In this document: positions 32,209-49,506 of the stretch, one piece after another
Layout: the number at the start of each line of letters is the position of its first letter
Position numbering within the stretch: the first letter of the stretch is position 1
Source of the DNA: Bacteroidales bacterium
GTDB taxonomy: Bacteria > Bacteroidota > Bacteroidia > Bacteroidales > Bacteroidaceae
Direction: 5' to 3'
Length of the DNA: 64,000 bases
Assembly: GCA_015060865.1 (NCBI GenBank)
Contig: SUXS01000002.1
Location: forward strand, 39,882-103,881
Program-made: the position numbers and the translations under genes
The notes under the pieces: generated by a model
Databases searched by the model: none
Told to the model about the DNA's origin: nothing
Seen by the model: only the letters and a program-made list of their open reading frames with translations

Positions 32209-32231
32209 GAGAAGTATATGCTTTTATATAA

Positions 32232-32263
32232 AGGCTGCTCCAAGTTGGAGCCTGGAGCAGCCT
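32232..32263 (-). terminator. Terminator after the distal susD
   Basis: AGGCTGCTCCA and TGGAGCAGCCT form an 11-bp stem around a 10-nt loop, with a T-rich tail on the leftward strand. It closes the long leftward PUL transcript. Confidence 0.8.
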
Positions 32264-32287: not shown

Positions 32288-34072
32288 TTACTTCAAAGGC
32301 AAGTACCAATTACTCTTGTCTTGCAACTTCGCAGCTAATTCCGGATCGTATTCGCCACTTCTGTTTGCTACACGATCAATGAGGAATTCGGGTTCGTTCC
32401 GACGTTCGGCAAAGCGGATGAGGTCGGTAAAGCGATTACCTTCAAAGGCTGCTTCCAATGCCAACTCATCGATAATACGCTGCTCGATATATTCAATAGT
32501 ATCATTGAACGTGATACCATCTTGGGGGATTTGGAGATAGGCCGCAATGGCTGATGGCTTCAGACTATAAGTAGTGTCAAGATGAGCATCGCCACATCCT
32601 CTTGCATGTACACCTTGCAAAGCTATAGATTTAAATATCTTCTCCACCTCAATGGGGACATCAAACATAGAACTGTTTCCTGTAATCTTACTTATGCCCT
32701 TAAAAGCCTCAAAAGCGTCTCTTAGTAGGTCATAGGCTATTATAGCATACTCTCTATCCTCTGTCTTTCGAGCATAACAATTAAATGCCTCTGCAGCGCG
32801 TAAATAACTTATGGGGCCGCGATAGATATTGATGAAAGTATGTTCGCTGTTCTGATATTTATCTACTCCACTATTAGTCAATTTGTTAAATTTCTTCATG
32901 GGAGCATAAACAATATCATTTAAGGTATATTCATCATTGGGATTGTGGTAATATGCACTGCGGCCGTCTGTATTTTTGGGGAAATATTCAACTATGGGAT
33001 CCACTTCATTTAACAAGTCGGTAGCCATACAATATGTTTGTGCATCACTAAGATTCTTCCAATAGAGTGAAGGGGCAAGCTGATGACTACCATCTTCTGA
33101 ATAGAACAACTTGTGTACTTCTGTTGTAGTCCCATATTCAGTCGATATAGCTAGTGGTATAACACATCTATTATCGGTTAATACACCATAGCCAATATAA
33201 TCAGTCCAACCTACAGAGGAATAAACAGATACCAAGTTTCCTATACTAAGAGGATTTTTGTATACGTACGCACCATTATTGGTTACAAGCCCTGTTAGTC
33301 TATAGCTAATATTGTTCTGGGTAACGACATGTGTGATTACCCCTTCTTCTGTGAGGAAATCCAATAAAACCTCAGTAGCCTTATCATACATTTCACTCCA
33401 TAAGTACAAGTCAGCTAAAACTAATGAGATTGAAGGTATCATTAATTTAGTTCCTACAGTCAGACCACCCCAAACGGGGGTTTCATACTCTTTGAAAGGA
33501 AGAAGTTCCTCAGCAAGTATTGGAGCCAGTTCTTTAATTCCATATAGAGGATAATCCTTTTCGGAATCAGGGATAGAGGTGATAGGCTCAGTATAGAAGG
33601 GTACTTTCCCATAATTGATGGCCAGTTGCATATAGGTCCATGCACGGATAGTCAATGCTGTTACGTACTCGTCTACCATCACACGCCCATTATTTTGGGC
33701 GATTGTCGTATCGATGTGGGCGATTAGATAATTACAGTTATTGATCACTGCATAATAATCTTTCACATCCAAGTATTCATTCTCAGCATCGAATTCAAAG
33801 TTAGCAAGGTTGCGCAGTGATGTCTTGGTAACATCGTTAATGGTCACCAAATCACCACGTACCTCACCTAAGATAACATAGCGGTCTGCTATTTGCTGCA
33901 AACTTTGCAAGATACCTAAGGTTGAGTATACAGAGTCGGCCGTACTATTTAGATGATGATCCTTCTCATATACGACACGGTTAGAATCGATGTCGAGCAT
34001 ATCTGCGCATGAAGTCGTCAATACTATCGTAAAGAATATGGTCAGGACTCCTATGATTGATTTACTTTTCAT
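32288..34072 (-). CDS. SusD/RagB-like outer-membrane lipoprotein (distal pair)
   Basis: This 594-aa lipoprotein has a lipobox TTSC with Cys near residue 22. SusD features are helical TPR-like repeats in the N-terminal half (YYAVINNCNYLIAHID; ALTIRAWTYMQLAINYGKVPFY), and a C-terminal IDELALEAAFEGNRFTDLIRF block. It binds glycan at the cell surface and forms the lid on the SusC channel encoded 34 bp upstream (37382-34107). The specificity is not visible. It is the last gene of the operon. Confidence 0.94.
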   Translation of the reverse strand: MKSKSIIGVLTIFFTIVLTTSCADMLDIDSNRVVYEKDHHLNSTADSVYSTLGILQSLQQIADRYVILGEVRGDLVTINDVTKTSLRNLANFEFDAENEYLDVKDYYAVINNCNYLIAHIDTTIAQNNGRVMVDEYVTALTIRAWTYMQLAINYGKVPFYTEPITSIPDSEKDYPLYGIKELAPILAEELLPFKEYETPVWGGLTVGTKLMIPSISLVLADLYLWSEMYDKATEVLLDFLTEEGVITHVVTQNNISYRLTGLVTNNGAYVYKNPLSIGNLVSVYSSVGWTDYIGYGVLTDNRCVIPLAISTEYGTTTEVHKLFYSEDGSHQLAPSLYWKNLSDAQTYCMATDLLNEVDPIVEYFPKNTDGRSAYYHNPNDEYTLNDIVYAPMKKFNKLTNSGVDKYQNSEHTFINIYRGPISYLRAAEAFNCYARKTEDREYAIIAYDLLRDAFEAFKGISKITGNSSMFDVPIEVEKIFKSIALQGVHARGCGDAHLDTTYSLKPSAIAAYLQIPQDGITFNDTIEYIEQRIIDELALEAAFEGNRFTDLIRFAERRNEPEFLIDRVANRSGEYDPELAAKLQDKSNWYLPLK

Positions 34073-34106
34073 GTCTTTTGCGTTTTTATAGTGGTTGTTC
34101 TATTTA

Positions 34107-37100
34107 TTAGAGATTTACTTTAACACCTACATGGAAGCTACGGCTTTGTCCGAGTAACCCAGCATCAATTCCCTGATAGAGCACATTGTTGCTGAATGAG
34201 AACTCAGGGTCACTACCCAAATAATTGGTTAGCGTCAGTAGATTGCTTCCTGCGCACCATACGGTAAGTCCTTGTAGCCATGAGGCCGAAACGGGAATCC
34301 GGTACGAGAGTTTCACGTCTTTCAATCGGATATACGACCCGTCTTCAATCCAACGGTCTGAAAAGCGGTTGTTCCCCTTAGGGTCTCCATAGGTAGCACG
34401 CGGCATATCAGTAATATCACCTTCGGTCTTCCAACGGTTACAAACTGCCAAGGTCTGATTGTAAAAACTGCTACCGCTTTCAATGAGTGAACGTTGATAG
34501 TTATACACATCATTACCCCAAGAGTAGTTGAGTGTAGCACTCAAGGTAAAGTTCTTGTAGGTCAGATTGCTATAGATGTTTCCATAGAGGTCAGGATTGG
34601 GATTACCGATGATTACGCGGTCGTGATCATTGATAATGTTGTCTCCGTTTTGATCTATGAAACGAACGTCTCCAGCCTCAAAAGCCTGTTTCACACCTGT
34701 TACCATGTTTTCTGTCTGCATGGGTACTCCATCCACTACGGGGACATCAGCAGCAGTGGCATATACTCCATCGGTTTCAAATCCAAAGAACACACCTGCT
34801 GATTGACCAACAGCCGTTAAAATTGTGGCATCATAGATTGAGGTAGTATGTCCATATAAGGCTCCATCCTTTACGCTATTAAATGTTTTCCCTTCTGGAA
34901 GTTGGGTAATCTTATTGGTATAATGCGCATAACTTTGACCAACTTCCCATTTCCAGTTCTTGGTATTGATAACCTTAACCGTGAGGTCCACCGATGCGCC
35001 ATTGTTGGTCATTGTTCCTCCATTGCTCCAATAATAGTCTAAGCCCGAAAGATATCCAAGTTTCTTTAGTGTCAGCAGGTTGCTGGTTTTATTATTGAAT
35101 ACATTCGCCCGTAATCTGAAACGATTATTACCACCTATCAAGTCTACCTCAAAGTTAAGCCTACGGGTCGTTTCCCACTGAACAGAAGGGTTACCAATGT
35201 TGGTCATCTTTAGTCCCATAGCATTACCCATATATTGGGTGGTGCTGAAGTAAGTATAGGCGGCATTTCCCGGGATGTTGTCATTTCCCGAGATGTCGAA
35301 TCCTCCTGAGATTTTTAGATAGTTAATATACTCTGTGTTGAAGAACGGTTCGGAAGACACCAACCATCCAGCTTGAACCGATGGGAATATACCCCAACAT
35401 ACGCCTCCCAGCTTAACGGCACTCTCTATTTCCTTACCAAATCGCGATGAGGCTTCAGCAGCTATGCTACCCTGCAGGAAATACTTATTTCGGAAACTAT
35501 AATCCACATTGGCGTACCAAGCCATATTGCGTGCTACATTATCCTCTCCACCCTCATCAATAAAATCGTAATCTTGGCTAATGTCTGGAAGTTTGTCATT
35601 ACCGGTATTGTGGCATGCCTGGTAACTGGAGTCAAATGCAAAGTTTGAGAAACGGAAACCTCCGAAGGCACTAAAGTAGTGGCCTGCAAATTTCTGTTCC
35701 CAGCTCAAACGAGTGTCACTATACACAGAAGTCTCTTTCGAGAAGATTGACCGCACTTCATTTTCAGATTCGCCCAAACCTACAATATGGAACATGGGGG
35801 TTCCCGTCATGGGGCGGAAATACTTTTCATTTGTACGATGAATCTTGTAGTTAAACAACGAATAGGCTTTCAGCGTTTTCCCTATTTTTGCTTCTGGAGC
35901 CACTGTCACGTCAAATACAGTATATTCTTGTACATTCTTATTGTCACCCGCTCCATGTTCGAAGATAGCCAAAGGATTCGCCAAACTATTCGTCTTTTCG
36001 TCGTTCTTCTCTATATCAAAGAATGTGTCGGCGCCAGCCAATGCAGAGGTCAACTGGCCACTATTGTTGTGTCTGTAAGGGCTTAAGAAAGGAGACTTGA
36101 CTAAAGCCAAGAATCCTGGCGCAGCAATGGGGCCACTTTTGAGATCTGGAATAATTCCATCATCACGCAAGTCACGCTTGATACGGCTATAAGATATGTC
36201 GAAACGTGTGTCAAGGAACTTTGCGAGACTGATATCTGTATTAAAACGGATATTCAATCGATTGAAATCATTACATTTAATGGTACTTGCTCCATCGGAG
36301 AATCCTACGGCAAAGTTGTACATCGCAACGTCATCACCACCTTGAACATTTACATGGTAGTTCTGTGCCCAAGCTTCGTTATAAATGTAATCGGCCCAAT
36401 TTGTTTCATTATGGTACATTGGGTAATAGTAGTTATCATGTTCCCAAAGGAAAGGGAATCGGGTTTGATCTGTTGTAACCCCACCCAACAATTCATTAGC
36501 GTACGTACGATATTGGTCTGCCCCCATCATCTGAGGTAGTTTAGGGGTCATGGTAAAACTGCCATACGCAGAAGCATCAATTCGAGTGGCCTGGCTATGC
36601 CCACGCTTCGTATCGATTAGGATAACGCCATTACCTCCTTTTGCTCCATAGAGTGCAGTAGCGTTCTTGATTACCTTGATTTGCTCAATATCATTAACAT
36701 CAATGCCAGCCAACACATTGTTGAAGAAACCATTGTGGATAGAGGTGTAACTTTCCTGCAGATCTTGAATCACTCCATCTAAAATGATGAGGGGTTGTGA
36801 CGAAGTGTTTAGTGAATTGATTCCTTGAATCAACATAAGGCCGCCCATTCCGATTGTCCCAGAGCGATTAATGACACGCACATCAGCCCCCAAGTTATTC
36901 TGTATTTCTGTCTCAACACTTGTTGCAGTTGTGATTCCCATTTCAAGTTCGCTCATAGCGCTAACCTCTATACTGTTCTTTGAAAAAGTGCTGAAAAGTT
37001 CATCATAGATAAGAATGGAAAGTTCGTTCTTCCTATCGGCTTTTACAATCAGAGGTTCATAGCCGGGTGTAGAAACATAGAGTGATGCCACATGCTTAGG

Positions 37101-37382
37101 TATACGTATGGTAAAGGAGCCATCTGCCTTAGTCATGGCCGTGTAATGGTTATCACCTAAGGCTTCTAAACGCACACCTGGCAGGACTTCCTTGGTCGCG
37201 GCATCATAGACTATACCCTTTACTTCAAAGAATCCATCTTGAAGCACAACCACAGAATCTTGCGACACATTCTCTTCTATTACATCAGTGGTTTGTGCCA
37301 TCATAGATGATGTTCCTATAACAGCTCCCATGATGATCGCTGCAAACCGAATGGAGGAATATTTATAGTTCTTCATTGTCAT
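34107..37382 (-). CDS. SusC/RagA-like TonB-dependent transporter (distal pair)
   Basis: This protein of about 1091 aa imports oligosaccharides across the outer membrane using TonB energy. A signal peptide is followed by a carboxypeptidase-regulatory-like domain (VKGIVYDAATKEVLPGVRL) and the plug (GLMLIQGINSL; ALYGAKGGNGVILIDTKRG). The barrel ends in SFHVGVKVNL. The start is between ATGs at 37382 and 37376. It is less conserved in the plug than the proximal copy (IKVIKNATA in place of IDVLKDASA), so the two transporters probably differ in substrate. Confidence 0.94.
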   Translation of the reverse strand: MTMKNYKYSSIRFAAIIMGAVIGTSSMMAQTTDVIEENVSQDSVVVLQDGFFEVKGIVYDAATKEVLPGVRLEALGDNHYTAMTKADGSFTIRIPKHVASLYVSTPGYEPLIVKADRKNELSILIYDELFSTFSKNSIEVSAMSELEMGITTATSVETEIQNNLGADVRVINRSGTIGMGGLMLIQGINSLNTSSQPLIILDGVIQDLQESYTSIHNGFFNNVLAGIDVNDIEQIKVIKNATALYGAKGGNGVILIDTKRGHSQATRIDASAYGSFTMTPKLPQMMGADQYRTYANELLGGVTTDQTRFPFLWEHDNYYYPMYHNETNWADYIYNEAWAQNYHVNVQGGDDVAMYNFAVGFSDGASTIKCNDFNRLNIRFNTDISLAKFLDTRFDISYSRIKRDLRDDGIIPDLKSGPIAAPGFLALVKSPFLSPYRHNNSGQLTSALAGADTFFDIEKNDEKTNSLANPLAIFEHGAGDNKNVQEYTVFDVTVAPEAKIGKTLKAYSLFNYKIHRTNEKYFRPMTGTPMFHIVGLGESENEVRSIFSKETSVYSDTRLSWEQKFAGHYFSAFGGFRFSNFAFDSSYQACHNTGNDKLPDISQDYDFIDEGGEDNVARNMAWYANVDYSFRNKYFLQGSIAAEASSRFGKEIESAVKLGGVCWGIFPSVQAGWLVSSEPFFNTEYINYLKISGGFDISGNDNIPGNAAYTYFSTTQYMGNAMGLKMTNIGNPSVQWETTRRLNFEVDLIGGNNRFRLRANVFNNKTSNLLTLKKLGYLSGLDYYWSNGGTMTNNGASVDLTVKVINTKNWKWEVGQSYAHYTNKITQLPEGKTFNSVKDGALYGHTTSIYDATILTAVGQSAGVFFGFETDGVYATAADVPVVDGVPMQTENMVTGVKQAFEAGDVRFIDQNGDNIINDHDRVIIGNPNPDLYGNIYSNLTYKNFTLSATLNYSWGNDVYNYQRSLIESGSSFYNQTLAVCNRWKTEGDITDMPRATYGDPKGNNRFSDRWIEDGSYIRLKDVKLSYRIPVSASWLQGLTVWCAGSNLLTLTNYLGSDPEFSFSNNVLYQGIDAGLLGQSRSFHVGVKVNL

Positions 37383-37404
37383 ATTCTTTTGTGTCAATAT
37401 TTGA

Positions 37405-39099
37405 TTACTCTACAGGTTCCAAAATGATACAATCAATTCTAAGGGTGCGGTCATAGTCTTTTCTCTGTGAACTGCTGACGTCCGAACTGATTTTTAATTT
37501 AGTCATCGTCTCAAGCTCCGCGCTGATCTTAGCCTCGTTACTTTTGAATGTGAAAGTATAATCCTCATCTGAGAATTTTCCCTTAAACTCATCCACATCC
37601 GGATTGAGAATTATGGTATCTAACGCATAAGGAGACAGGCGGTTGTAGCCTCCTCTAACATAGGTTCCCAATTTAGTATTCTTGGACTTGCCTTTTTCAT
37701 CAGGATAATAAAGGGTCGCTTTCAGCTTGGTCGGTTTTAATAGGGTGGTATCGCCATATACCAAGCTGGTATTTTGAACTGCTGCAGGCGCAAGGACTAC
37801 CTTAATCCGATATTTGGCAGAAAGAGTACTTGGAATAAGGTAGGTGGCATCAATATTACCACTTGAGCGCAGAGGTATGAAAGCTGCATAAGCATTGTTC
37901 GACAGCCTTATACTATCGCTCTTGCTTAGATAATGGGTCTGTATGCGGGTAGAGGCGTTATTATCATCGTTGTATTCTTCATTGTATCCCAACGATTCTC
38001 CTTGTACCTTAATGGTATCATGCCAGCATTTGATGGGAGAATAATTCAATTTGTCTACAATATGTACAGAACCATTACTTAATTCTTCCTTATCTACTTC
38101 GTCGGCGAATAGGGCATTCATTTCATCGTAGCGGAATACGGTAGGTAATACGGATAGTCTACTACCAATATAGTTAGAAATCAGGGAGTCTTCCCGGTTC
38201 TTTTGTATCGTATTACTAAACACCAAGTGACGACACATATATTCCTTTGCCCACATATCCTGTAGCGAGTCGGCCTCTTCGGTCTCTGTACGTGCATCAA
38301 AAACGAAGTAGGATTTTGCCATCTCATACATCTCATTCCATGCCTTATTGGTAGGGATAATCATAGTGTACGAACTATCCTCGTTGTTCAGTTCACCAAT
38401 CGCACTCCACCATGGGTTGCTTTCCTGCCACACGATGTCCAAATAGGTGACCTTACCGTTCACCATTGGTCCCTGCACACTTAACACCGGATCGATTTCT
38501 CTCTTGGTGTATGATTTGATGAAATCCCTAAAAATGGAAATGGTTGTATCTTTATCCAGATATTCCCAAATGTTGGGCGTGAATTGGGCGTATTCGCCAT
38601 TTCTTCCAATGTGGTGTATAATACCATTCTTAGCGGGAACATTGGCTTTGGTAACAGCTACATTCTTGAAGGTATAGTTCCCTGTGGTACCGACAAAATC
38701 AATAAGCTTCTCGTTGTGCATCTTGACCTTGTTCTGCATTAAGGTACCTGTACCTAAATGACTGTAGTCTGCTATGTGGTTCTGAATAAACTCATAAACT
38801 ACAGTACTATCGGTCAATACTCCATCATTCTCTGCTTGAGATAAGAAGCCATTGGTAGGTGCCCAAACAGTATAGTATCGGCTTCCGTTCAGGATAGTGT
38901 CATACCCAGCCTCTTTCAGCACTCCTGCAAATTCAGTCAGTGAAGTATCCGAAGAAATAATATCCCATAGTGTTTCATTGGTATTACTTCCCATATTAGT
39001 ATCTACTGAATAGTGGCTATCCCAAGTGTCGGAGCATGCTATAAATGCCAATGCCACAGCACCACTCAATAGTGTCTTCTTTATAATACGATTTTTCAT
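37405..39099 (-). CDS. Fasciclin (FAS1) domain lipoprotein, 564 aa
   Basis: The lipobox Cys lies near residue 22 (FIACSDT). At least two FAS1 repeats are visible: one begins LWDIISSDTSLTEFAGVLKEAG and includes YTVWAPTNGFL and KNGIIHHIG; the second includes YTMIIPTNKAWNEM and GSVHIVDKL. The C-terminal 200 residues are beta-rich with no family I recognise. FAS1 domains mediate adhesion or binding. Being surface-anchored between SusCD pairs, it may bind glycan; that is inference. It ends 8 bp before the frame of the distal susC. Confidence 0.88.
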   Translation of the reverse strand: MKNRIIKKTLLSGAVALAFIACSDTWDSHYSVDTNMGSNTNETLWDIISSDTSLTEFAGVLKEAGYDTILNGSRYYTVWAPTNGFLSQAENDGVLTDSTVVYEFIQNHIADYSHLGTGTLMQNKVKMHNEKLIDFVGTTGNYTFKNVAVTKANVPAKNGIIHHIGRNGEYAQFTPNIWEYLDKDTTISIFRDFIKSYTKREIDPVLSVQGPMVNGKVTYLDIVWQESNPWWSAIGELNNEDSSYTMIIPTNKAWNEMYEMAKSYFVFDARTETEEADSLQDMWAKEYMCRHLVFSNTIQKNREDSLISNYIGSRLSVLPTVFRYDEMNALFADEVDKEELSNGSVHIVDKLNYSPIKCWHDTIKVQGESLGYNEEYNDDNNASTRIQTHYLSKSDSIRLSNNAYAAFIPLRSSGNIDATYLIPSTLSAKYRIKVVLAPAAVQNTSLVYGDTTLLKPTKLKATLYYPDEKGKSKNTKLGTYVRGGYNRLSPYALDTIILNPDVDEFKGKFSDEDYTFTFKSNEAKISAELETMTKLKISSDVSSSQRKDYDRTLRIDCIILEPVE

Positions 39100-39125
39100 A
39101 TGGTGTATATATTTTACTTACAATA

Positions 39126-41225
39126 TTATTTGCGTTTTTCTAGGAAGGAGATTTCGGGATTACGTATGTATCCTAAAGGTACGATTTCGATATAATCGTG
39201 CATCATTTGTGCCGTTCCGTCATCGTTCTGTGTCACATTCTTGAAACGAATCCAATGCTCACCTTCAGACAGATATTTGGTCGTAATCACTCTACGTAAT
39301 GATTGAATGTCATCGCGTACATTTAACGAACCGCCTTGATAGTAGGTGTTAGGACCTTTCAGGTAACCACGGTTCTTCATTTCCTTGTCATTGATGAGAC
39401 CACCATACTCAACCCCATTGACTACTGTTACGTCTCCATTGGCTTTAGCATCAGCATCAGATACCCAGCCAACAATGGCATGACCACCATTCTTGCGCAG
39501 ATCGATAGGGATACCGGTAACTTCGAAAGGTATCTTATTCACATCGCTTCCGCTCCCGATGTAGAATTGCACCACACCACGTTTACCAGACATAGAGTAT
39601 CCCATACGGATTTCGTAAGTTCCAGCTGGTACTGGGGGAAGTTTGTAGGCAAAGTCGTATGCGCCCAATGCCATCATCTCATCGCCTTGGTAGTTTCTCC
39701 AACTCATAGTAGGGCAAAGGTAATAAAGACGTGTTTCATTGGTGAATCGTTTGAAGTGCCTTGACTTTTCTAAATAATTACCCGTTTCGTTCACCAGCAC
39801 AAATTCATTCTTCGAGAAGTGAGGAGTTCCAGCTTTGCCATTGCTACACCAGCGAACCTCGTTAGTTACAAGTTCTGGCACTATAGCAGAGAAATCAAAA
39901 CGCATGATGCAATTAAGCACGCTACCTCTCATTTCGGTCTCATCGTATAAAAGGATTCCGTCAATTACATGAACAATACCGTTGAGTGCTATTTGATCAA
40001 AGTCTGGATAACTACTCTTTACATCTACAGGATCCTTTACCAAAACATTGACATGTTTTTCCAAATCCTTATTGATTACCTCTGGAGTATAGTTGATTAA
40101 TCTTCTGCTGTCGGTTCTGTTCGTACCTCTGGGGGTAGTAATCTTCATTAGACGACGATTGTACGTCTCGTAATACTCGGTACGATCAGACATCTTTACT
40201 AAGTTCTTCTCCGAATCAAAGCCATCAGACAATGTAAGATCTGTACATGTCAAATAGGAGTATATCACCTTACGAGGAACAATGTGGTAAGCAATAAATT
40301 GGTACAGAGAATTTTCCGGGCTCTTGAAGTCTGGGTCTTGCGCTTCAGGATACCATTCTTTACAACGATCAACCAAATCTTCAAAACTATTGATTCCATT
40401 CAGTGCGAATATGCTATCTGGCTCTACAAATGCAGTGAATCCCCAGTAACGAGAGAGTGGTCGGGTGGTGGTATTTCCCTTGTCAAAATGATCCTGGGGA
40501 GTCAAGTCGTAGTTGTATTCAAAGTCTTTATAGGCCTGCATGGAATCTGCAATTCCAGTCTTTTCAAGAGCCTCCGAGAAGATACTGAAGTAGTCAAATT
40601 TTCCAATTTGGGTAGGTACGGTATTGGATGAAGGAGCCAACACACCTGAAAGAGCGTGTACGACACCATTCTCCACCTCTTCATCTCGTTGGATAATCTC
40701 CGCAGATCCGTTTACAACCATGATGGTACGACCTTTTTCTGCCAAATAGTTTACACTGAGATAGCGGTCGTTCAAATTCATAGTTGGGATGATATCTCCT
40801 TCCATGTCAGTGGTTAAGTAAATCTCAGGCAAGAGGTGGGTTTGTGCGATTACTTTGCACATAGAGTCTGACAACTCACTTAGGTATGGTGAATAGATAC
40901 CATTATCGATAGGCTTTTCCGTATCTTTGGTCGCCTGATAAATAGAGTCCTGCACAAAAAGATACCTGTCAATAGCTTCATTGGTTGGCGCAAAGCATGT
41001 ATAGGTTCCGTAAGCTTTCATCAAGCTAAAACGTCCACCCCGTTTAAGAATCTCAATAAAACTACTGAAATACTCTGAATTCTTCTCCAAATAGCTTGCT
41101 ACCGTATTTCCTGTAAAGGTATAGCGAGCCTCTTCTGCAATCTCATCCTTACAGCTGCTAAGACCCAATACAGTCACAGTAGCCAATAACAAGGAGCAAA
41201 TGGTGTTTTTATAATTCATTCTCAT
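39126..41225 (-). CDS. Fasciclin (FAS1) domain lipoprotein, 703-aa frame
   Basis: The protein is about 699 aa from the ATG at 41225 (a TTG at 41237 overlaps the susD stop). The lipobox Cys is in GLSSCKD. FAS1 features: YTCFAPTNEAIDRYLF, NGVVHALSGVL, then a second repeat with NLYQ-type LYQFIAYHIVPRKV and NGIVHVIDGILLY. The region after 450 is beta-rich (RLYYLCPTMSW, GTYEIRMGYSM, HWIRFKN) and may be a carbohydrate-binding-like sandwich; its family is not recognised. It lies directly between the proximal susD and the 564-aa FAS1 gene. Confidence 0.87.
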   Translation of the reverse strand: MRMNYKNTICSLLLATVTVLGLSSCKDEIAEEARYTFTGNTVASYLEKNSEYFSSFIEILKRGGRFSLMKAYGTYTCFAPTNEAIDRYLFVQDSIYQATKDTEKPIDNGIYSPYLSELSDSMCKVIAQTHLLPEIYLTTDMEGDIIPTMNLNDRYLSVNYLAEKGRTIMVVNGSAEIIQRDEEVENGVVHALSGVLAPSSNTVPTQIGKFDYFSIFSEALEKTGIADSMQAYKDFEYNYDLTPQDHFDKGNTTTRPLSRYWGFTAFVEPDSIFALNGINSFEDLVDRCKEWYPEAQDPDFKSPENSLYQFIAYHIVPRKVIYSYLTCTDLTLSDGFDSEKNLVKMSDRTEYYETYNRRLMKITTPRGTNRTDSRRLINYTPEVINKDLEKHVNVLVKDPVDVKSSYPDFDQIALNGIVHVIDGILLYDETEMRGSVLNCIMRFDFSAIVPELVTNEVRWCSNGKAGTPHFSKNEFVLVNETGNYLEKSRHFKRFTNETRLYYLCPTMSWRNYQGDEMMALGAYDFAYKLPPVPAGTYEIRMGYSMSGKRGVVQFYIGSGSDVNKIPFEVTGIPIDLRKNGGHAIVGWVSDADAKANGDVTVVNGVEYGGLINDKEMKNRGYLKGPNTYYQGGSLNVRDDIQSLRRVITTKYLSEGEHWIRFKNVTQNDDGTAQMMHDYIEIVPLGYIRNPEISFLEKRK

Positions 41226-41233
41226 AGCTGGTA

Positions 41234-43051
41234 TCAATTTTTGTCAAACATGTCCAAAGTCTCGTATGCGGGGTTCTGCTTCAACAGAGGATTGGTATTA
41301 ATTTCTCTCTCCGCAATAGGGAAGAATAGATAATCAATCGTAGGCATCTTATTAATATACGACTTATGATTTGAGGTATATTTGTTCTTCACGAATTCTT
41401 CTACAGTTGCAGTAGAACTGCCATCTCTCAATGCCTTTCGAACGAGATCAAACCAACGCTTACCTTCAAAAGCAAACTCTCGTTGACGCTCCTTCAGTAT
41501 CAAATCTTGCATGGAATTCGCATCGCCTTTTGTGTAAGTCAAGGTATCGGCATCTGCAATGCTTCTTCGATTGTTGGAACGGTAGTATACGGCCTGTACC
41601 AAAGGGAACGCCTTGTCTAAATCCATTTGGGTAGAATCGTTTCGGTGAGCCAATGCTTCGGCCTTCATAAGCATAACATCGGTGATTCGATATATAATCC
41701 AGTTACACTGGGTCATATAATACTGTTCATGATACCCCTTCGTGTTATCGTTCTGCTGCTGGATGCTCCGATATACGGGAATGCCAATAGAACTATTTGT
41801 GCCGGTTGGGCTGAATACGCCAACGAAGTTAGTAGAAAGGTATTTGCTGATCAGTGCGGGTTCCTCTTCTCCATCGGTAAGATCCATAAAACTTACTCGG
41901 CGAATGTCTGTTTTGGGATATAAACTACCGTCAGCGCTATTGGATAGGTAGGCAGTCGCTACAAAACCGGCGACGGATATATTAGTTCCCCTTCCAAAGT
42001 TCTTGGTTATAAAATAATTGTTTTCTTCCACATTACCACTACGTCCAATCTGAAGCTCAAAGATACTTTCTGCTACACTATTCTGGATACCAAATATCTC
42101 TTGGTAGGCAGGATTACCAGAATATTGTGCTGAAGCTGATGCGGATGCTGAGAAACTAGGAACAATAGGGTATTCTTGCTCTTCCAAATCATCATATCCC
42201 AGTTTATCCTTATTCGTGGTAAGGTATTCTTTCCGGGCATTGATAATTGCATCGCAATATTCAATACATTCAGTATAGTATTGGTCGCATCCTTCGTCAT
42301 TGCCATTCGCCGCGTATTGAGTAAATGCAGCTTTCCACAATAGGACATCGGCTATGGTTGCTCGTACGGCATCACGGGTAATACGCCCCTTGTTCTCCGC
42401 TACAGAAATGTAGCTACCTGATTCCATCACCAACTCTTCTGCCTCATACAAATCTGCCAGAATTTGGTCCAAAGCTTCAATTGGTGAGACCTGAGGCTGA
42501 TAGAGTTCCTGGCTGTCATCAATTATAGCCTCCACCTGTAGAGGAATGTCACGAAAAGCACGCACCAAGTAGAAATGGCATAAGGCGCGTAAGGCCAACA
42601 TCTCTCCTTTGTGCACCAAATAGTCCCCCTCAGTATAGTCTGGATCAAGTTCCATCACCTCAGGCGCAAATTTCAATACAATATTACAGTTGTTGATAAT
42701 ACCATAGAAATCCCCCCATTGAGCAAAGCCATTGGTCGGCAATAGATTAGCCTCGTTAATGTTACGATAATTGCCTGCATCCAATGTGCCTTCTGTAACA
42801 TTGTCAGAACGCAGTTCACCCCAAACGAGCATATACTCTGCTACAGATGATTGGGCCATTGTCCGATAGCAATTAGCGACCATGGCCTCCACATCGGCTT
42901 TCTCTTTCCAATAGTTCTCCATCACGACAGCATTTGTAGGATAAATGGTCAGATAGTCGCTACATGCGGTGAAACTCAGTAGAAGAAAGCCTCCAAAAAA
43001 CGCTTTAATCCATCGATTAAGGTGAGTTGATCTTGTGCTATATTTTTTCAT
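41234..43051 (-). CDS. SusD/RagB-like outer-membrane lipoprotein (proximal pair)
   Basis: This 605-aa lipoprotein has its lipobox Cys near residue 30 (SFTACSDYL). Typical SusD blocks are MVANCYRTM, YGIINNCNIVLKFAPEV, MLALRALCHFYLVRAFRDIPLQ and the C-terminal RQREFAFEGKRWFDLVRKAL. It forms the surface lid of the adjacent SusC transporter (17 bp upstream). The two SusD proteins of this locus are clearly different in sequence, so this is not a recent tandem duplication. Confidence 0.95.
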   Translation of the reverse strand: MKKYSTRSTHLNRWIKAFFGGFLLLSFTACSDYLTIYPTNAVVMENYWKEKADVEAMVANCYRTMAQSSVAEYMLVWGELRSDNVTEGTLDAGNYRNINEANLLPTNGFAQWGDFYGIINNCNIVLKFAPEVMELDPDYTEGDYLVHKGEMLALRALCHFYLVRAFRDIPLQVEAIIDDSQELYQPQVSPIEALDQILADLYEAEELVMESGSYISVAENKGRITRDAVRATIADVLLWKAAFTQYAANGNDEGCDQYYTECIEYCDAIINARKEYLTTNKDKLGYDDLEEQEYPIVPSFSASASASAQYSGNPAYQEIFGIQNSVAESIFELQIGRSGNVEENNYFITKNFGRGTNISVAGFVATAYLSNSADGSLYPKTDIRRVSFMDLTDGEEEPALISKYLSTNFVGVFSPTGTNSSIGIPVYRSIQQQNDNTKGYHEQYYMTQCNWIIYRITDVMLMKAEALAHRNDSTQMDLDKAFPLVQAVYYRSNNRRSIADADTLTYTKGDANSMQDLILKERQREFAFEGKRWFDLVRKALRDGSSTATVEEFVKNKYTSNHKSYINKMPTIDYLFFPIAEREINTNPLLKQNPAYETLDMFDKN

Positions 43052-43068
43052 ATCATTAAATTTTCAAA

Positions 43069-46000
43069 TTAGAATCCAATAGTCATTGCCAATGTGAAAG
43101 AACGTGGACGTGGGGTTTTGGCATTGTCGGTAGCACGCCCCCATGAGCCAGGACCAATTTCCGGATCCAAGCCAGTATATTTGGACAAGACAAAGAGATT
43201 ATTGATAGAAGCATTGAAACGTAGATTGGTAAGCCCATACTTTTTGATGAATTGAGGATCTACGGTGTATGAAAGGTTCATATACGAAAGACGCAAGAAT
43301 GACGCATCTTCTACATAGCGGTCACTACCCAACCAGTTGTATCCGTATTGGTAGAGCGCACGTGGCATCTCAGTAATATCCCCTTCTTTTCTCCAACGCC
43401 AATTAGTCGCAGCGCTCTGGTTGTAGTTGGTGTTCATGTTCTCAATGTTCATTCGTGCAGAGTTGATAACGTCCACTCCATAGCGATAGTTAAAGTTGGT
43501 ACGGAGCGACCAACGCCCATAATTGAACGTGAGTCCAAAACCACCTTGCGCCTTAGGATTTGAATTGCCTAAGTAAACAATGTCCAATTGGTTGATATTA
43601 CCATCATGGTTGATGTCCTCATAAATGGCGTCACCACCCTTAAAACGATAGTTCGTCCCTCCGTAATCAAAGAAGACAGGGAGCGGTTTTCCATCAGCAC
43701 CAATGATAATGTTTCCACTTTCATCGGATGCTATGGGACAGATGTCCGAGGCACTGATGCCCTCTTCCGCAGCTGTCTGAATGGCTTTTTCGTAGTTCTT
43801 ATAGCTATATCGGTATACCCCCTTGAAACGGAAGCCATAAATGGATCCCAAGGGGTTGCCTATCTGTATACGACCCATATAGGAGCCATTTTTGAAATCG
43901 TATTCACCATTCGCATTGTTCAATACCGATTCTTCCATGGACTCAACACTATTGAAGTTCTGTCCTATGTTGAAATAGGCATTCATTGAGAATTTACCAA
44001 TCTTGATGAATTTATTACCATTGACATTCAACTCCCAACCACGGTTACGGACACTTCCTGAGTTCTTGTATGCCAATGAATAATACCCTGTTGATGAAGG
44101 TATGGCATAACCGCCCATAAGCTGATCTGTGGTCAGGCTGTTATAATAGTTGAAGCTAAACGTTAAGGCTTCACTCTCAAAGAAATGGAGGTCACCACCA
44201 ATATTGTACTCATTTTTGGTCTCCCACATTAGGTCTGTCAATCTTAATCCATTCTGAGTAATGGTGTTTATTCCAAGATAAGAACCATTAGGGCTATACG
44301 TTGTATAATGGAGATACTCTCTACCAGGCTGACGTCCTGTCATACCCCAACCGGCACGAACCGAGAGCATACTGATTTTTGGGGTTTCCTTTGCCCATTC
44401 CATCCATGGCTCGTCAATGATGTTCCAACGTCCTGATATACCGGGGAAATTACCCCAACGGCGTTTTTGCCCAAACTGGGTACTACCATCGCGACGTACT
44501 GTAGCAGTGGCGCTATATTTACCTTCTTTGTATGAGTAGACAGCTGAATATAACATGCTGACGGATCGCCATTGCCCTGTGCCAGTACTTGAAGAACTTA
44601 ATATAGAACCTGTGGTTGGACTTGTAATACCAGTAGGAATACCGTATGAGGCAGAATATGCACTGCTTGAGCTACCCTGTCGCACTTCAAACTGTGCAAA
44701 CATGGTCAAGTAGTGGTCAGTGTTGTTAAATGCAGGAGTATACATCAGTTTATGGCGAGTATAGAACTCCAAACGTTTGTCGTCGCTGGTAGAACTCACA
44801 TTCTTGTCATTTGCATACCATGCTTGTGTTGACAAGCTACTCGGGCGATATTGGCTATCACTATTGGTGTTTGCACTCATCTTTACCAAACCCTGGTAAC
44901 GAAGTTGGTGCTCTCCCTGATCAAGTCCCAATAATTGGTAGTCAATAGATATCTGGGGGGATATGTTGTAGCTACGGGTGTTTTTCCATGCCAGATTTCC
45001 AGAGGCAACAGGATTGAGAATATTCTTCTGATTCTTATCGAAAATACCACTAGCATCTTGACGCATGAGGTAGTAGTCCTCTGTATCATTGCCCAACGGG
45101 TCTTGAGTATGAATACTCATATTGGGCATGATTATCTGCGCATCGGATAGTAGACTAGTATAGTTCTTGTCATTGTCAGTGTATACCAACTCAAAGTCCG
45201 ACACCACTTTGATGCGATCTGACACGAAATAATCTAATGCCATACGGGTGGTAAAACGGTCAAGTTTCTGCTTAATCACCGAACCACTTTCGTGCTGATA
45301 ACTTCCAGAGATACGGAACGAAGCACGATCACCACCTCCAGAGAGTGAGATGTCGTGCTGATGCTTATGACCATGTTGCGAGATGGCTTTTACCCAATCA
45401 GTATTGTTGTTGTAGTTCTCATATTCCGAGAAAGAGGGGTCATAATTCAACTCTTCTGCATCCGAAGCCGTACTATTCTGTTTGGGATTAAAATGCTCTT
45501 CCTTCAACAGCATGGTGTAGTCATCACCATTCAGAAGATTTAAGCCCTTCGGCAACCATGAGTTCTGGTATTTATACGAATAGGTAACTTTGGTCTTACC
45601 TCTTGAACCGCGCTTGGTCTTAATCATGATAACACCATTCGAACCTCTTGATCCCCAAATAGCTGATGCCGATGCATCTTTTAGGACATCAATGCTCTCT
45701 ATGTCTTCAGGGTTGATAGTAAGCAATGTAGCAAACTTCTCCTCATTGGCAGTGCTAAAGTCAAAGTCCTCGCCTTCGGGCATCTCAAAAATAATATCAT
45801 TTACCACAATGAGGGGTTCAGCGTTACCATTGATGGTAGATACACCACGAAGACGCATGGTAGAACCTGCACCCAGGTCTCCAGAACCGAATACGATGTC
45901 AAGACCTGCAATCTGGCCTTGCAAAGCCTCATCCACTGAGGTAAATGAAAGACCTTCAACTTCGCTCATTTTGAAAGTCTGCTTGGCCACAGAGACTTCG

Positions 46001-46371
46001 CGTTCCAAGATGTTGAGACCACCCGTATTGGTGCGAGGCTTGGCTTGTATCACCACCTCTTCGAGAGCATTGTCTTCAGACATGGTGATATTGAAAATTG
46101 TCCTAGTGCCAATTTCCAAAATCTGCTCTTTATAACCTACATACGTGAATTTCAACTTGTTCTTGTTGTTCTTGACAATCATCGTAAAATTACCATCAAA
46201 GTCGGTAGTCGCATGTTCCACGATACGGTTATCTTTGTCAATTTCCACGACATTGGCCATCATCAATGGCCCCATGGCATCGCTTACCTGACCAGAGATA
46301 CGCTGCTGCGCATTTGCTTGTGTGGCAAACAGACAGATGATAGATAGTAAGATATATTTGTAAACTTTCAT
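43069..46371 (-). CDS. SusC/RagA-like TonB-dependent transporter (proximal pair)
   Basis: The protein is 1100 aa. The signal peptide spans 1-21, and a carboxypeptidase-regulatory-like domain (RISGQVSDAMGPLMMANVVEI, about 24-105) precedes the plug. The classical SusC plug motifs are present: LRGVSTINGNAEPLIVVND and IESIDVLKDASASAIWGSRG. The barrel runs to ARSFTLAMTIGF-like final residues with a terminal Phe. It imports glycan oligomers across the outer membrane. It lies 11 bp after the 1024-aa FAS1 gene. Confidence 0.96.
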   Translation of the reverse strand: MKVYKYILLSIICLFATQANAQQRISGQVSDAMGPLMMANVVEIDKDNRIVEHATTDFDGNFTMIVKNNKNKLKFTYVGYKEQILEIGTRTIFNITMSEDNALEEVVIQAKPRTNTGGLNILEREVSVAKQTFKMSEVEGLSFTSVDEALQGQIAGLDIVFGSGDLGAGSTMRLRGVSTINGNAEPLIVVNDIIFEMPEGEDFDFSTANEEKFATLLTINPEDIESIDVLKDASASAIWGSRGSNGVIMIKTKRGSRGKTKVTYSYKYQNSWLPKGLNLLNGDDYTMLLKEEHFNPKQNSTASDAEELNYDPSFSEYENYNNNTDWVKAISQHGHKHQHDISLSGGGDRASFRISGSYQHESGSVIKQKLDRFTTRMALDYFVSDRIKVVSDFELVYTDNDKNYTSLLSDAQIIMPNMSIHTQDPLGNDTEDYYLMRQDASGIFDKNQKNILNPVASGNLAWKNTRSYNISPQISIDYQLLGLDQGEHQLRYQGLVKMSANTNSDSQYRPSSLSTQAWYANDKNVSSTSDDKRLEFYTRHKLMYTPAFNNTDHYLTMFAQFEVRQGSSSSAYSASYGIPTGITSPTTGSILSSSSTGTGQWRSVSMLYSAVYSYKEGKYSATATVRRDGSTQFGQKRRWGNFPGISGRWNIIDEPWMEWAKETPKISMLSVRAGWGMTGRQPGREYLHYTTYSPNGSYLGINTITQNGLRLTDLMWETKNEYNIGGDLHFFESEALTFSFNYYNSLTTDQLMGGYAIPSSTGYYSLAYKNSGSVRNRGWELNVNGNKFIKIGKFSMNAYFNIGQNFNSVESMEESVLNNANGEYDFKNGSYMGRIQIGNPLGSIYGFRFKGVYRYSYKNYEKAIQTAAEEGISASDICPIASDESGNIIIGADGKPLPVFFDYGGTNYRFKGGDAIYEDINHDGNINQLDIVYLGNSNPKAQGGFGLTFNYGRWSLRTNFNYRYGVDVINSARMNIENMNTNYNQSAATNWRWRKEGDITEMPRALYQYGYNWLGSDRYVEDASFLRLSYMNLSYTVDPQFIKKYGLTNLRFNASINNLFVLSKYTGLDPEIGPGSWGRATDNAKTPRPRSFTLAMTIGF

Positions 46372-46382
46372 GGTGCAATGTA

Positions 46383-49300
46383 TTATTTGGTTATTTCAAA
46401 TCTGTCAGTTTCGGGATTATAGAAACGTTGGTTGAGCAGACAACCGTCAATCTGATGAACAACGGCAAATGAAGAAGTCTTCATCTGATATGCAGCTGCT
46501 GTACCTTCTCTTTCTATATCTCTTGTCATAATATTATACAATTTATTTTCATTCTCTGGTGTATTGATAACGTGGCAGATATTGTCATATTGCTGAACAT
46601 TCTCTTTGTTTCTGAAGTCACCTCTTACGCTAATGGTATTCCTACCATTGTGCTCTACAGTTTCAACAGTAACTTTGCTGAACAGATTGGTAACATCATC
46701 AATGGCTGAAGTCTCGTAATCTACTACAAAAATCTCTTTATTACCTTCAATGATGGAATGGGGCTTATTATCAACATATACAGAGTTGTCTTGCACATGA
46801 TACTTAGTAAAACTGGAGATGATGGAAGCCTGCTCTTTAATGTCGGCAATAGTACCCTTATTCCATTCTTGCAGTTTGGCTATTGCAGCCTTCAATGTAT
46901 CAATTTGGGCTTGTATCTGCTCCATTTGTGCAGAATCGACAGCATTAGCCTTTGAGTCCTCAAGATCTTCTATCTCAGCATTATAGGATATAATAGCAGT
47001 CTCGTTATCTGTGATTTCCTGAGCAAGTCCTTTGAGAGGCTCCCAACTAGGCAACCCCTTCTGTTGTGCCTCACGGATGGCCTCGTTCGTCGGGACATAT
47101 ACGGTATAATGATAAGTGTTAAACGAGCGAACATTTTGGTCAAGACCTCCATAGTTGTTTTGCGCCGTGTTATAAGGGTTGTAGAATACATAATAACGGG
47201 CAACGGAGTCTTCTGCGCCATCTTTAAGCTTGCCATTCTTGTCACGTGGCTTTAGATGATCGATTACCTCGGCGGGAACATCACAAAGTTCAAAGAACTC
47301 GGAGAATTCTCCATCAGGTGAATCTTTCAGGACATTGTATACCGAACGCGTTGCGGGATGTATCATACCTTCGTCCAGACGATAGGTCTTTCCGTTCTTT
47401 TGGTTAAAGGTCTCACCAATAGCAATACCATAATGGTCTCTACCGTGCATTCTTTCTTTGATTTGGTCTTCCAACTCTCGACCTCCCCATACGCGTACCA
47501 AACTGTCGTTAACGCCGTCACCATCCGTATCAATAGCATCAACTTTAATAGTACCATACCCTTTCGACATGTAGTATTTATTACCATCCAACACATCGCC
47601 TACGATAATATTGTATTCCAACAATTCAAGCAATGCATCGTTGACAATTGCGCTGGCAGTGGTGGTACCATATGTGACATTCTCTGGAGTTTGTGGTTCA
47701 TAGGTACCTCGGTAATAGGTAACTGTACCATTAGCTCCCTTTGTGGGATCCCAAAGCATCTTGTAAGCATAATGCTCCGTATTGATGTCGCCTTCGTTTG
47801 GAGTAGATGTATAAGAGGTGCATGGATCATAATATACCATAGCCTCATTGGAAGGTATAAACAAACTGAAAGTACTTTGCATAGCCAAAAGGTAGCTCTT
47901 ATACTCGTTAGTCAATATAGCGTAGTTTGCTATAGCCATATTGTCTCTAAGCATGACGGGGGCTGATACGGCAACATAATCAGCAGGGCTATATACCGTT
48001 TTGGTTAGATATACAACTCCATTGTTGGCGATGATACATGGAGTGGTTTCATCCAAGTCCCCTTCTCTTGCTCCTAAATCGTCCTGGGCATCATTCTTTA
48101 GGGACATGAATTTTGACGGTACAGCTCCGTTAAATGAAGGTTTCATTAAATTTCGCACCAATGATTGGATAATCTTGGTAGGAATACTATCAATAGCCCC
48201 AGGAAGAGGAGCGCCATTCGCATAACGTTGGATAAGCGGCTTGCCCTCGCCTGATTCGAAGTAGGTCCATAATGTTTCATCGGTAGGAGCAAATATTACT
48301 CCCATGTCGACCTCAGGACTTACAGCATTTCCTGATTGGAAGTAGTTCCATCCCGGAGAGAATTTAAGAGAGCCATCCGCTGTAAATGAGCTATCGGGGG
48401 CATACACCTCATCGCGGAATGTCAAGAAACCTGCCGACTCCTTCTCGTCATAATAGGTACTTCGGTTTGAACCTGCCGTAAAATAGCGTTTTTCATATAC
48501 GCGTTCAGCATTGGCATCATCGTTCAAATGAAAGATTCGATTGTATTCTCTAGTAAGTGCCTCATTGTAAACTGGAACTGCAAATCGATCCAACATGTGG
48601 CTGAAAAGGTTGGTTTTTCCATTGGTTCTAATCTCCTCAGCCATATTGCTGGGAGGAATCAATAACCCATCCAGCAAGTGAATGTATCCATTTTTACATG
48701 TAACATCTTTTTTGCGAACCTTTTTATCGAAGATGTAAGCATCAGCTGTCGATGCGTCCGGACGATTCACCAAATACTTGAGGTCATTATCCGTAATACC
48801 CTTTCCGACCAATTGCGAGGTCAAAAAGTGCACCATCATCGTGGAGGTAGCATCAGTAGCCAATCTGATGCCTCCTTCGTTTTGAATTTTACCCGCTAAA
48901 TGTTCCCAATATCGATTGAATTGAGGGATCATAGTTCCATCAAAAAACGGGATTGAATCCGTAACGTTGGAAGAGGTGACCTGGCGCAGGCACTGCCCCT
49001 CGTTCGGATCGGCATCATTTCCTGTAGCTGCAGTGCTTGACATCATCTCCAACAAATACGCATTGTCAAGCATAGCATTATAAAGGATGATACGTTTGTG
49101 AGCTGGTGTCAATTGGTTGTACACTTCCTCATCGCTTCCCACCAGTTGCCATTCGTCCCTGACAGCCTTCATAAAAGCCTCATCGTTGGCGACGAATAGC
49201 GTCTTGCTACCGGTTTTGGATAGGACCTCTTTATAATTAAGATCGTCAATGACTCTGAGAAAATAAGAGAACGATTCGCCATTCAGATTTTCTGCAGATT

Positions 49301-49457
49301 GTAGTTCCTCATAAATGCTCTCGCCCAACCATGGCGGAGTGTTGCCGAAATCGTCGTAGACGTACTCGTCCCGGCATGATTGCGTGATTGCGCAAACAAA
49401 TAGAAAACAAGCAATTAGCAAGCTGTTACCTGCTTTACGTGTGTTTTTTGGGCTCAT
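46383..49457 (-). CDS. Large fasciclin (FAS1) domain lipoprotein, 1024 aa
   Basis: This is the first gene of the FAS1/SusCD operon. The lipobox Cys is near residue 28 (ITQSCRDE). Several FAS1 repeats are visible, including KTLFVANDEAFMKAV, NGYIHLLDGLLIPPS, FSLFIPSNEAMVYY and YTVYVPTNEAIREAQ; I estimate four. Within the last repeat, residues about 815-878 are a heptad-rich coiled coil (EIEDLEDSKANAVDSAQ, then QIDTLKAAIAKLQEW) not normally part of FAS1. It is predicted to be surface anchored. The binding partner is unknown. Confidence 0.88.
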   Translation of the reverse strand: MSPKNTRKAGNSLLIACFLFVCAITQSCRDEYVYDDFGNTPPWLGESIYEELQSAENLNGESFSYFLRVIDDLNYKEVLSKTGSKTLFVANDEAFMKAVRDEWQLVGSDEEVYNQLTPAHKRIILYNAMLDNAYLLEMMSSTAATGNDADPNEGQCLRQVTSSNVTDSIPFFDGTMIPQFNRYWEHLAGKIQNEGGIRLATDATSTMMVHFLTSQLVGKGITDNDLKYLVNRPDASTADAYIFDKKVRKKDVTCKNGYIHLLDGLLIPPSNMAEEIRTNGKTNLFSHMLDRFAVPVYNEALTREYNRIFHLNDDANAERVYEKRYFTAGSNRSTYYDEKESAGFLTFRDEVYAPDSSFTADGSLKFSPGWNYFQSGNAVSPEVDMGVIFAPTDETLWTYFESGEGKPLIQRYANGAPLPGAIDSIPTKIIQSLVRNLMKPSFNGAVPSKFMSLKNDAQDDLGAREGDLDETTPCIIANNGVVYLTKTVYSPADYVAVSAPVMLRDNMAIANYAILTNEYKSYLLAMQSTFSLFIPSNEAMVYYDPCTSYTSTPNEGDINTEHYAYKMLWDPTKGANGTVTYYRGTYEPQTPENVTYGTTTASAIVNDALLELLEYNIIVGDVLDGNKYYMSKGYGTIKVDAIDTDGDGVNDSLVRVWGGRELEDQIKERMHGRDHYGIAIGETFNQKNGKTYRLDEGMIHPATRSVYNVLKDSPDGEFSEFFELCDVPAEVIDHLKPRDKNGKLKDGAEDSVARYYVFYNPYNTAQNNYGGLDQNVRSFNTYHYTVYVPTNEAIREAQQKGLPSWEPLKGLAQEITDNETAIISYNAEIEDLEDSKANAVDSAQMEQIQAQIDTLKAAIAKLQEWNKGTIADIKEQASIISSFTKYHVQDNSVYVDNKPHSIIEGNKEIFVVDYETSAIDDVTNLFSKVTVETVEHNGRNTISVRGDFRNKENVQQYDNICHVINTPENENKLYNIMTRDIEREGTAAAYQMKTSSFAVVHQIDGCLLNQRFYNPETDRFEITK

Positions 49458-49498
49458 ATTTCAACTTAGATTTAATGTTATTTCTCCTTAATAAGAGA

Positions 49499-49506
49499 CA
49501 AAAATA
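49499..49506 (-). promoter_or_regulatory. Promoter -7 box of the FAS1/SusCD operon
   Basis: Read leftward TATTTTTG, a TAnnTTTG match, 42 bp before the 1024-aa FAS1 start. No clear -33 TTTG is present, which may mean an activator is needed. Confidence 0.6.

Follow-up and report, generated by a model that had tools for sequence, protein, structure and literature searches.

What is made by a run of seven genes in which three lipoproteins with fasciclin (FAS1) domains are interleaved with two SusC-SusD pairs? This run, here called the septet, occupies positions 49457-32288 on the minus strand of a 64,000 nt window (the whole stretch of DNA analysed) from a Bacteroidales bacterium of the family Bacteroidaceae (GenBank assembly GCA_015060865.1, contig SUXS01000002.1, positions 39,882 to 103,881). 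In Bacteroidota, glycans are taken up predominantly by SusCD systems, and the FAS1 fold is best known from animal cell-adhesion proteins. The original prediction, made from the DNA letters, had proposed a single operon for a nutrient-capture machine that uses FAS1 folds for binding. Our own reading, to which we give a probability of roughly 55 %, is that the septet encodes an outer-membrane machine for the capture and import of plant glycans in which the FAS1 units would be mainly spacers or scaffold and C-terminal modules would bind.

Open reading frames (ORFs) and family models agreed on the predicted order of seven tightly spaced genes, FL-SusC-A-SusD-A-FM-FS-SusC-B-SusD-B, all on the same strand. 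FL (46383..49457) is a 1024 aa lipoprotein, followed by the TonB-dependent transporter SusC-A (43069..46371; clade CA) and the lipoprotein SusD-A (DA; 41234..43051). FM (39126..41237) and FS (37405..39099; 564 aa) are lipoproteins with two FAS1 units and a C-terminal region modelled as a β-sandwich, and the second transporter SusC-B (34107..37397; clade CB) and the divergent SusD lipoprotein SusD-B (DB; 32288..34072) complete the set. The intergenic gaps between longest ORFs, in septet order, were 11, 17, -4, 26, 7 and 34 bp. The longest ORF of FM starts at 41237 and encodes 703 aa, its first ATG at 41225 giving 699 aa, and the SusC-B ORF begins with TTG, its likely start being an ATG at 37382 or 37376.

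Whole-protein scores against Pfam Fasciclin (PF02469) were 37.8 (FL), 57.3 (FM) and 60.5 (FS) bits, all above the cut-off of 22; FL passed by its whole-protein score only, no single stretch of it reaching 0.001 alone. Both SusC proteins passed the SusC/RagA subfamily model of TonB-dependent barrels, TIGR04056 (671 bits for SusC-A and 551 for SusC-B, cut-off 368), and the short signature TIGR04057 (cut-off 46.2) was exceeded by SusC-A (61.5) and not by SusC-B (38.3). SusD-A passed both SusD models (SusD_RagB, 89.6; SusD-like_3, 47.9). SusD-B fell just below both cut-offs (25 vs 27 and 22 vs 23.1) but matched SusD-A in BLAST (E 2e-8) and stands directly after SusC-B, so that in both pairs a SusD lipoprotein lies directly 3' of a SusC, as is expected of a SusCD pair.

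The 3.03 Mb source genome contained seven Fasciclin matches in three clusters, and two further loci (C6:22402-38703 and C18:29241-45684) each carried all seven genes arranged as in the window. Identity between proteins in the same slot of the three septets was 28-55 %, and that between SusC-A and SusC-B was 24-28 %. The three SusC-A proteins scored 2140-2150 bits on their own profile, the best other SusC scoring 188. Six of the 12 full-size SusC ORFs of the genome, counted from the profile table, lay inside septets. The order is more than chance because it recurs three times in this genome and again elsewhere in the order and class.

Relatives were gathered at 110 loci, the window excluded: the two others of the source genome, 80 from a scan of genome contigs with SusC-A (the best 80 of 228 relatives), 20 from the order and eight from other orders of the class. 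The 80 came mostly from ruminant-gut Bacteroidaceae and Prevotella metagenome-assembled genomes, the named carriers being Paraprevotella clara, P. xylaniphila, Prevotella sp. P3-122 and Hallella seregens. The FS profile matched 17 of 19 genomes of the genus, 63 of 295 of the order (E up to 1e-3; 28 at at least 80 bits by our own count) and 172 of 395 of the phylum, where most of the listed matches spanned the first FAS1 unit only; in the order and phylum searches only four or three candidates were scored in most genomes, so that copies can be missed. The order sample comprised 20 loci from 20 genomes, 18 of them from the 27 non-own genomes at at least 80 bits and two picked by the spacing of FAS1 matches, and the class sample comprised the eight non-own loci above 200 bits among the listed phylum matches, all from other orders. 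Since SusC-A or FS served as the query, its own presence is given by selection, whereas the presence of the other components is not.

Exact septets were found at 73 of the 110 loci, including all eight from other orders of the class; 15 loci lacked FM only. Both SusCs were visible at 98 loci, the remaining 12 ending before the second SusC. FM was present in three copies at two loci and in two copies at one (L024, L026 and L100), and an extra FM lay 3' of SusD-B at L140 and L141. At L131:4090-19986 all seven genes were present in permuted order, FL following SusD-B with a 4 bp overlap instead of preceding SusC-A. A short, weak SusD-like match preceded FL at L143, SusD-A was read as two pieces at L065 and L141, and the remaining non-septet loci ended at contig or fetch limits. 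Gene loss at L055, L063, L077, L049 and L084 was considered and rejected, as long antisense ORFs had masked the true genes; at L084, SusD-B had first seemed missing and is present. A congener carries four FAS1 genes in a row (G002:C16:29614-36291). The septet is thus not peculiar to the window locus, and it is a variant of the Sus systems, or polysaccharide utilization loci (PULs).

For contrast, 20 FAS1 loci with lower scores were picked from the phylum search, and 19 of them had no SusC or SusD match nearby; FAS1 genes thus do not as a rule take part in septets, and a general FAS1-SusCD linkage was rejected. The same 19 loci, together with the known role of FAS1 in adhesion, would suit FAS1 proteins that are adhesins co-transcribed with transporters and nothing more, an explanation rendered very improbable by the fixed order and by the joint inheritance with both pairs at the class-wide loci examined. 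One locus outside the order (L186:8908-16117) had the arrangement SusC-SusD-304aa-FAS1, with a single pair, and is perhaps a simpler relative of the septet. A different conserved FAS1 neighbourhood was seen at seven loci without SusCD matches (L171, L172, L174, L175, L178, L180 and L182), where genes of ~1110 and ~310 aa stood directly before a FAS1 gene of 580-810 aa, the similarity of these partner genes being judged from length alone.

Pairwise distances of FL, CA, DA, FM, FS and CB correlated at 0.93-0.98 over the 78 loci holding all six, as compared with a maximum of 0.31 in 200 permutations per pair, although species history accounts for part of this correlation. In a tree of 25 CA, 25 CB and seven other SusCs, for which the six non-septet SusCs of the source genome were fetched, CA (support 99) and CB (support 100) each formed one clade, and the two were sisters relative to the other SusCs (support 98), a relation that depends on no more than seven outside SusCs, on a quick tree method and on midpoint rooting, and for which the program warned of long branches among the outside SusCs. 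The two clades were near-mirrors in topology, with differences for example at L139 and L143/L144, and in both the window copy grouped with L021, the C6 copy with L045 and the C18 copy with Hallella. The septet is best read as the outcome of a single ancient duplication of a unit of FAS1, SusC and SusD genes, which the tree suggests because CA and CB are sister clades, followed by duplication or transfer of the whole septet. The earlier view that the strong divergence of the copies speaks against simple duplication thus holds for recent copies, and the sister clades point to an ancient one.

This history also bears on whether the two pairs work together. They could be two independent SusCD importers that share a transcript and a glycan, each with its own FAS1 protein (FL with A and FS with B) and with no single assembly. 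The gene order parses as FL-C-D, FM, FS-C-D, the sister clades are those expected after duplication of such a unit, L186 has one pair with one FAS1 protein, and tandem SusC/SusD pairs are known from a Segatella copri xylan PUL, as described in passages of PMC11784079. Among septet-type loci of sufficient length to judge, however, none retains one pair alone, and FL of L131, though shifted to the opposite end of the gene run, remains within it; we regard independent importers as a possible but distinctly less probable explanation than a joint machine. In a more specific version of the latter, about as probable as independent importers, the septet would encode an obligately hetero-paired transporter. 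SusC-A and SusC-B would then be neighbours in a single particle where a SusC homodimer is usual, FL would clamp them, and FM and FS would be FAS1 stalks bearing glycan-binding tips.

The three FAS1 proteins had been predicted to be lipoproteins, and this was borne out across the relatives. A strict lipobox pattern was found at 93 of 100 FL, 86 of 95 FM, 95 of 103 FS, 97 of 109 DA and 83 of 87 DB N termini, compared with 11 of 109 CA and four of 97 CB proteins as the negative control; this pattern, with SusC as control, was chosen after an earlier loose pattern had flagged 63 of 109 SusC-A proteins. An acidic residue followed at +2 to +4 in 87 FL, 78 FM, 85 FS, 89 DA and 73 DB proteins, a feature resembling the signals by which Bacteroidetes lipoproteins are exported to the surface. 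In FL, invariant Asn-Gly pairs, which are typical of FAS1, occur at 256/257, 479/480 and 688/689, and there is a fourth FAS1-like unit. In hhalign, segments 1 and 4 joined FAS1, segment 3 did so weakly and segment 2 did not, and the profile matches of FL to periostin and TGFBIp, taken with hhalign, back the same units to the same degree. FL therefore probably consists of four FAS1 units.

AlphaFold2 models of FM (pLDDT 86, pTM 0.84) and FS (pLDDT 84.3, pTM 0.80) each comprised a pair of FAS1 regions and, at the C terminus, a region rich in strands, which we read as a β-sandwich. The top Foldseek matches of both models were TGFBIp, periostin and Fasciclin I. Among non-FAS1 matches, the xanthan-binding module MiXBM ranked high for both, accompanied by the carbohydrate-binding modules (CBMs) CBM6 and CBM22 for FM and by CBM22 for FS; the output had no query ranges, and these matches probably fall on the C-terminal domain, to judge from its strands. 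The likeness of the predicted β-sandwich to CBMs is one of fold and not a family assignment. The listed solved chains that matched FAS1 profiles included, as judged from chain names, no FAS1 lipoprotein of Bacteroidota.

The original prediction had assigned binding to the FAS1 folds themselves and had placed all three proteins where SusE/F-type proteins are usually encoded. FM and FS, which follow a SusD, occupy this position; FL, which precedes SusC-A, does not. That FAS1 domains form the glycan-binding sites would agree with the presence of FAS1 in every accessory protein and with the FAS1 domain of stabilin-2, a hyaluronan receptor, among the Foldseek matches. We nevertheless consider it rather unlikely, as FM and FS hold a separate β-sandwich that may be a carbohydrate-binding module, and as the FAS1 tandems of periostin and TGFBIp mediate protein contacts; FAS1 may instead be spacer or scaffold.

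Flanking proteins were sampled as chosen representatives, and the following figures are counts and not rates. At many loci the adjacent genes encode pectin or xylan enzymes. In the main sample, which took for the most part the closest same-strand protein, 11 of 20 were sugar-related: PL11, a rhamnogalacturonate lyase, GH115, GH67, GH43, GH88, GH31, GH2, a GH-like DUF4450/MGH1-like protein, an acetylesterase and an FGGY sugar kinase. A wider-range sample in the source genome gave six or seven of 10. Glycan-enzyme genes, whose adjacency marks a PUL, directly adjoined the C6 septet and several relatives, and did not directly adjoin the C18 and window septets. A PL11 rhamnogalacturonan I lyase gene stood directly before the C6 septet, L161 was flanked on either side by GH115 and a rhamnogalacturonate lyase, and the GH67 at L046 belonged to a protein cluster covering four Paraprevotella loci. 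Plant cell-wall glycans are the probable substrates, with different ones for different septets. That of the C6 septet is probably rhamnogalacturonan I, because the lyase gene adjoins it. An arabinan-type substrate for the C18 septet was dropped, the GH127, GH43 and GH97 genes near it being ~9-17 kb away on the opposite strand.

Import of peptides or glycopeptides in the manner of RagAB, for example from plant glycoproteins, has in its favour that some SusCs carry peptides, according to passages of PMC7661554, and that the window-type septet has no directly adjoining glycoside hydrolase. It appears improbable in view of the 40 septet neighbours scanned, among which no peptidase family was found and about 20 were sugar-related. 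Upstream of the septets, mostly at Prevotella-type loci, two further protein clusters were seen (L053:1827-4304 and L053:4635-7238), one with a DUF4859 representative (16 loci) and one of 630-870 aa (12 loci), both scanned members of which had no Pfam match.

In the machine that we favour, the two TonB-dependent barrels, SusC-A and SusC-B, with their SusD lids would import oligosaccharides, as follows from the SusC and SusD families. FM and FS would act as surface glycan-binding proteins, each anchored by a lipid, with its two FAS1 units serving as a stiff spacer and with a CBM-like C-terminal β-sandwich that holds the polymer, a division of roles proposed because of the domain order. FL, with probably four FAS1 units and no CBM-like module, would most likely be a scaffold, and all seven proteins would form one assembly, as their co-inheritance suggests. 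Glycan binding, complex formation and the substrates are things that we infer and did not observe. For the nutrient-capture part of the original prediction there is good support: the septet is conserved, its lipoproteins carry surface signals, and many relatives have glycan enzymes as neighbours. The assignment of binding to FAS1 folds in the same prediction fares less well against the CBM-like fold of the FM and FS ends.

Several observations weigh against this machine. Capture and import would be functions deduced from gene order, co-inheritance, signals, folds and neighbours, and the correlated distances owe something to species history. FM is missing from 15 loci. Cry toxins and FlaA1 fell in the same Foldseek E-value range as the CBM matches, no CBM appeared in the C-terminal halves among the Pfam families of 60 FM members (E up to 1; 23 of 23 families) or among those listed for 60 FS members (E up to 1; 25 of 30 families), and hhalign joined FM and FS by the first FAS1 unit only and not by their C-terminal domains. 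A second neighbour sample was sugar-related in only two of 10 cases, the glycan-enzyme genes near the C18 septet are those distant ones on the other strand, and the genes nearest the window septet encode a PD40 and a DUF6057 protein and not glycan enzymes.

The promoter-like box and terminator proposed earlier can both be read in the sequence. Upstream of FL stands TATTTTTG (49499..49506, minus strand), a candidate -7-type box of the Bacteroidetes consensus. A terminator-like hairpin 3' of SusD-B (32225..32262, minus strand) has a perfect 10 bp stem and a loop of 10, the hairpin proper spanning 32262-32233 and being followed by TTTATATA to 32225. Simple promoter and terminator scans gave no excess of sites over shuffles, the hairpin with its loop of 10 not being listed, and because they were no better than shuffles their results were left out of the argument.

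Upstream of the window septet on the minus strand lie genes for a PD40 β-propeller lipoprotein (49578..51086) and a DUF6057 protein (51181..53058), both identified by Pfam. By tblastn, PD40 matched at 24 of the 110 loci (two being fragments at a contig start) and DUF6057 at 23, of which 22 also had PD40; both are conserved neighbours of the window-type septet. The PD40 lipoprotein contains a heme-like CxxCH motif, and at L131 a DUF6057 relative (27 % identity) occurs without PD40. Further upstream, Pfam identified Glyco_hydro_cc and CBM_4_9 proteins, with one Glyco_hydro_cc protein at 53083-57159 and another, with an H-type lectin match, at 61179-63974. An M23 peptidase at 28786-29757, on the opposite strand to the septet, looks like a cell-wall hydrolase.

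With the starch-utilization-like PULs that encode SusE/F or other surface glycan-binding proteins, the septet shares the SusC and SusD families, lipoprotein signals, a slot for a binding protein after SusD and, at many loci, glycan-enzyme neighbours. It differs in its two SusCD lineages in fixed order, in an additional upstream protein that probably has four FAS1 units, and in the use of FAS1 where those systems have Ig-like domains, the spacers of SusE-type proteins. Periostin, TGFBIp and Fasciclin I likewise have FAS1 tandems, of four units in periostin as probably in FL, whereas the septet proteins are bacterial lipoproteins of a putative transporter operon, two of them with a predicted C-terminal β-sandwich. 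Two SusC/SusD pairs in tandem also occur in the Segatella/Prevotella xylan PUL, which passages of PMC11784079 describe with a GH10 xylanase and an HTCS and without mention of FAS1; it is likened here by description and not by SusC kinship. A FAS1 domain protein is named in the figure legend of a SusD-containing Gramella PUL (PMC4891872), and with that legend the single-pair arrangement at L186, itself not a septet, may be compared. Prokaryotic FAS1 proteins are typically single-domain, according to an excerpt of PMC6032426. No description of a FAS1-SusCD septet was found among the matches listed from open-licence full-text literature, a body that leaves most subscription papers and all bioRxiv preprints outside, so that absence from print is not shown.

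Recurring across many families of the order, reaching further orders of the class and accounting for half of the SusCs of this genome, a fixed seven-gene form of SusCD with two transporter lineages would amount to a large branch of these systems that has no name yet. It would offer a role, open to experiment, for the multi-FAS1 proteins of bacteria. The septet is carried by named isolates, Paraprevotella clara YIT 11840, P. xylaniphila YIT 11841 and Hallella seregens ATCC 51272.

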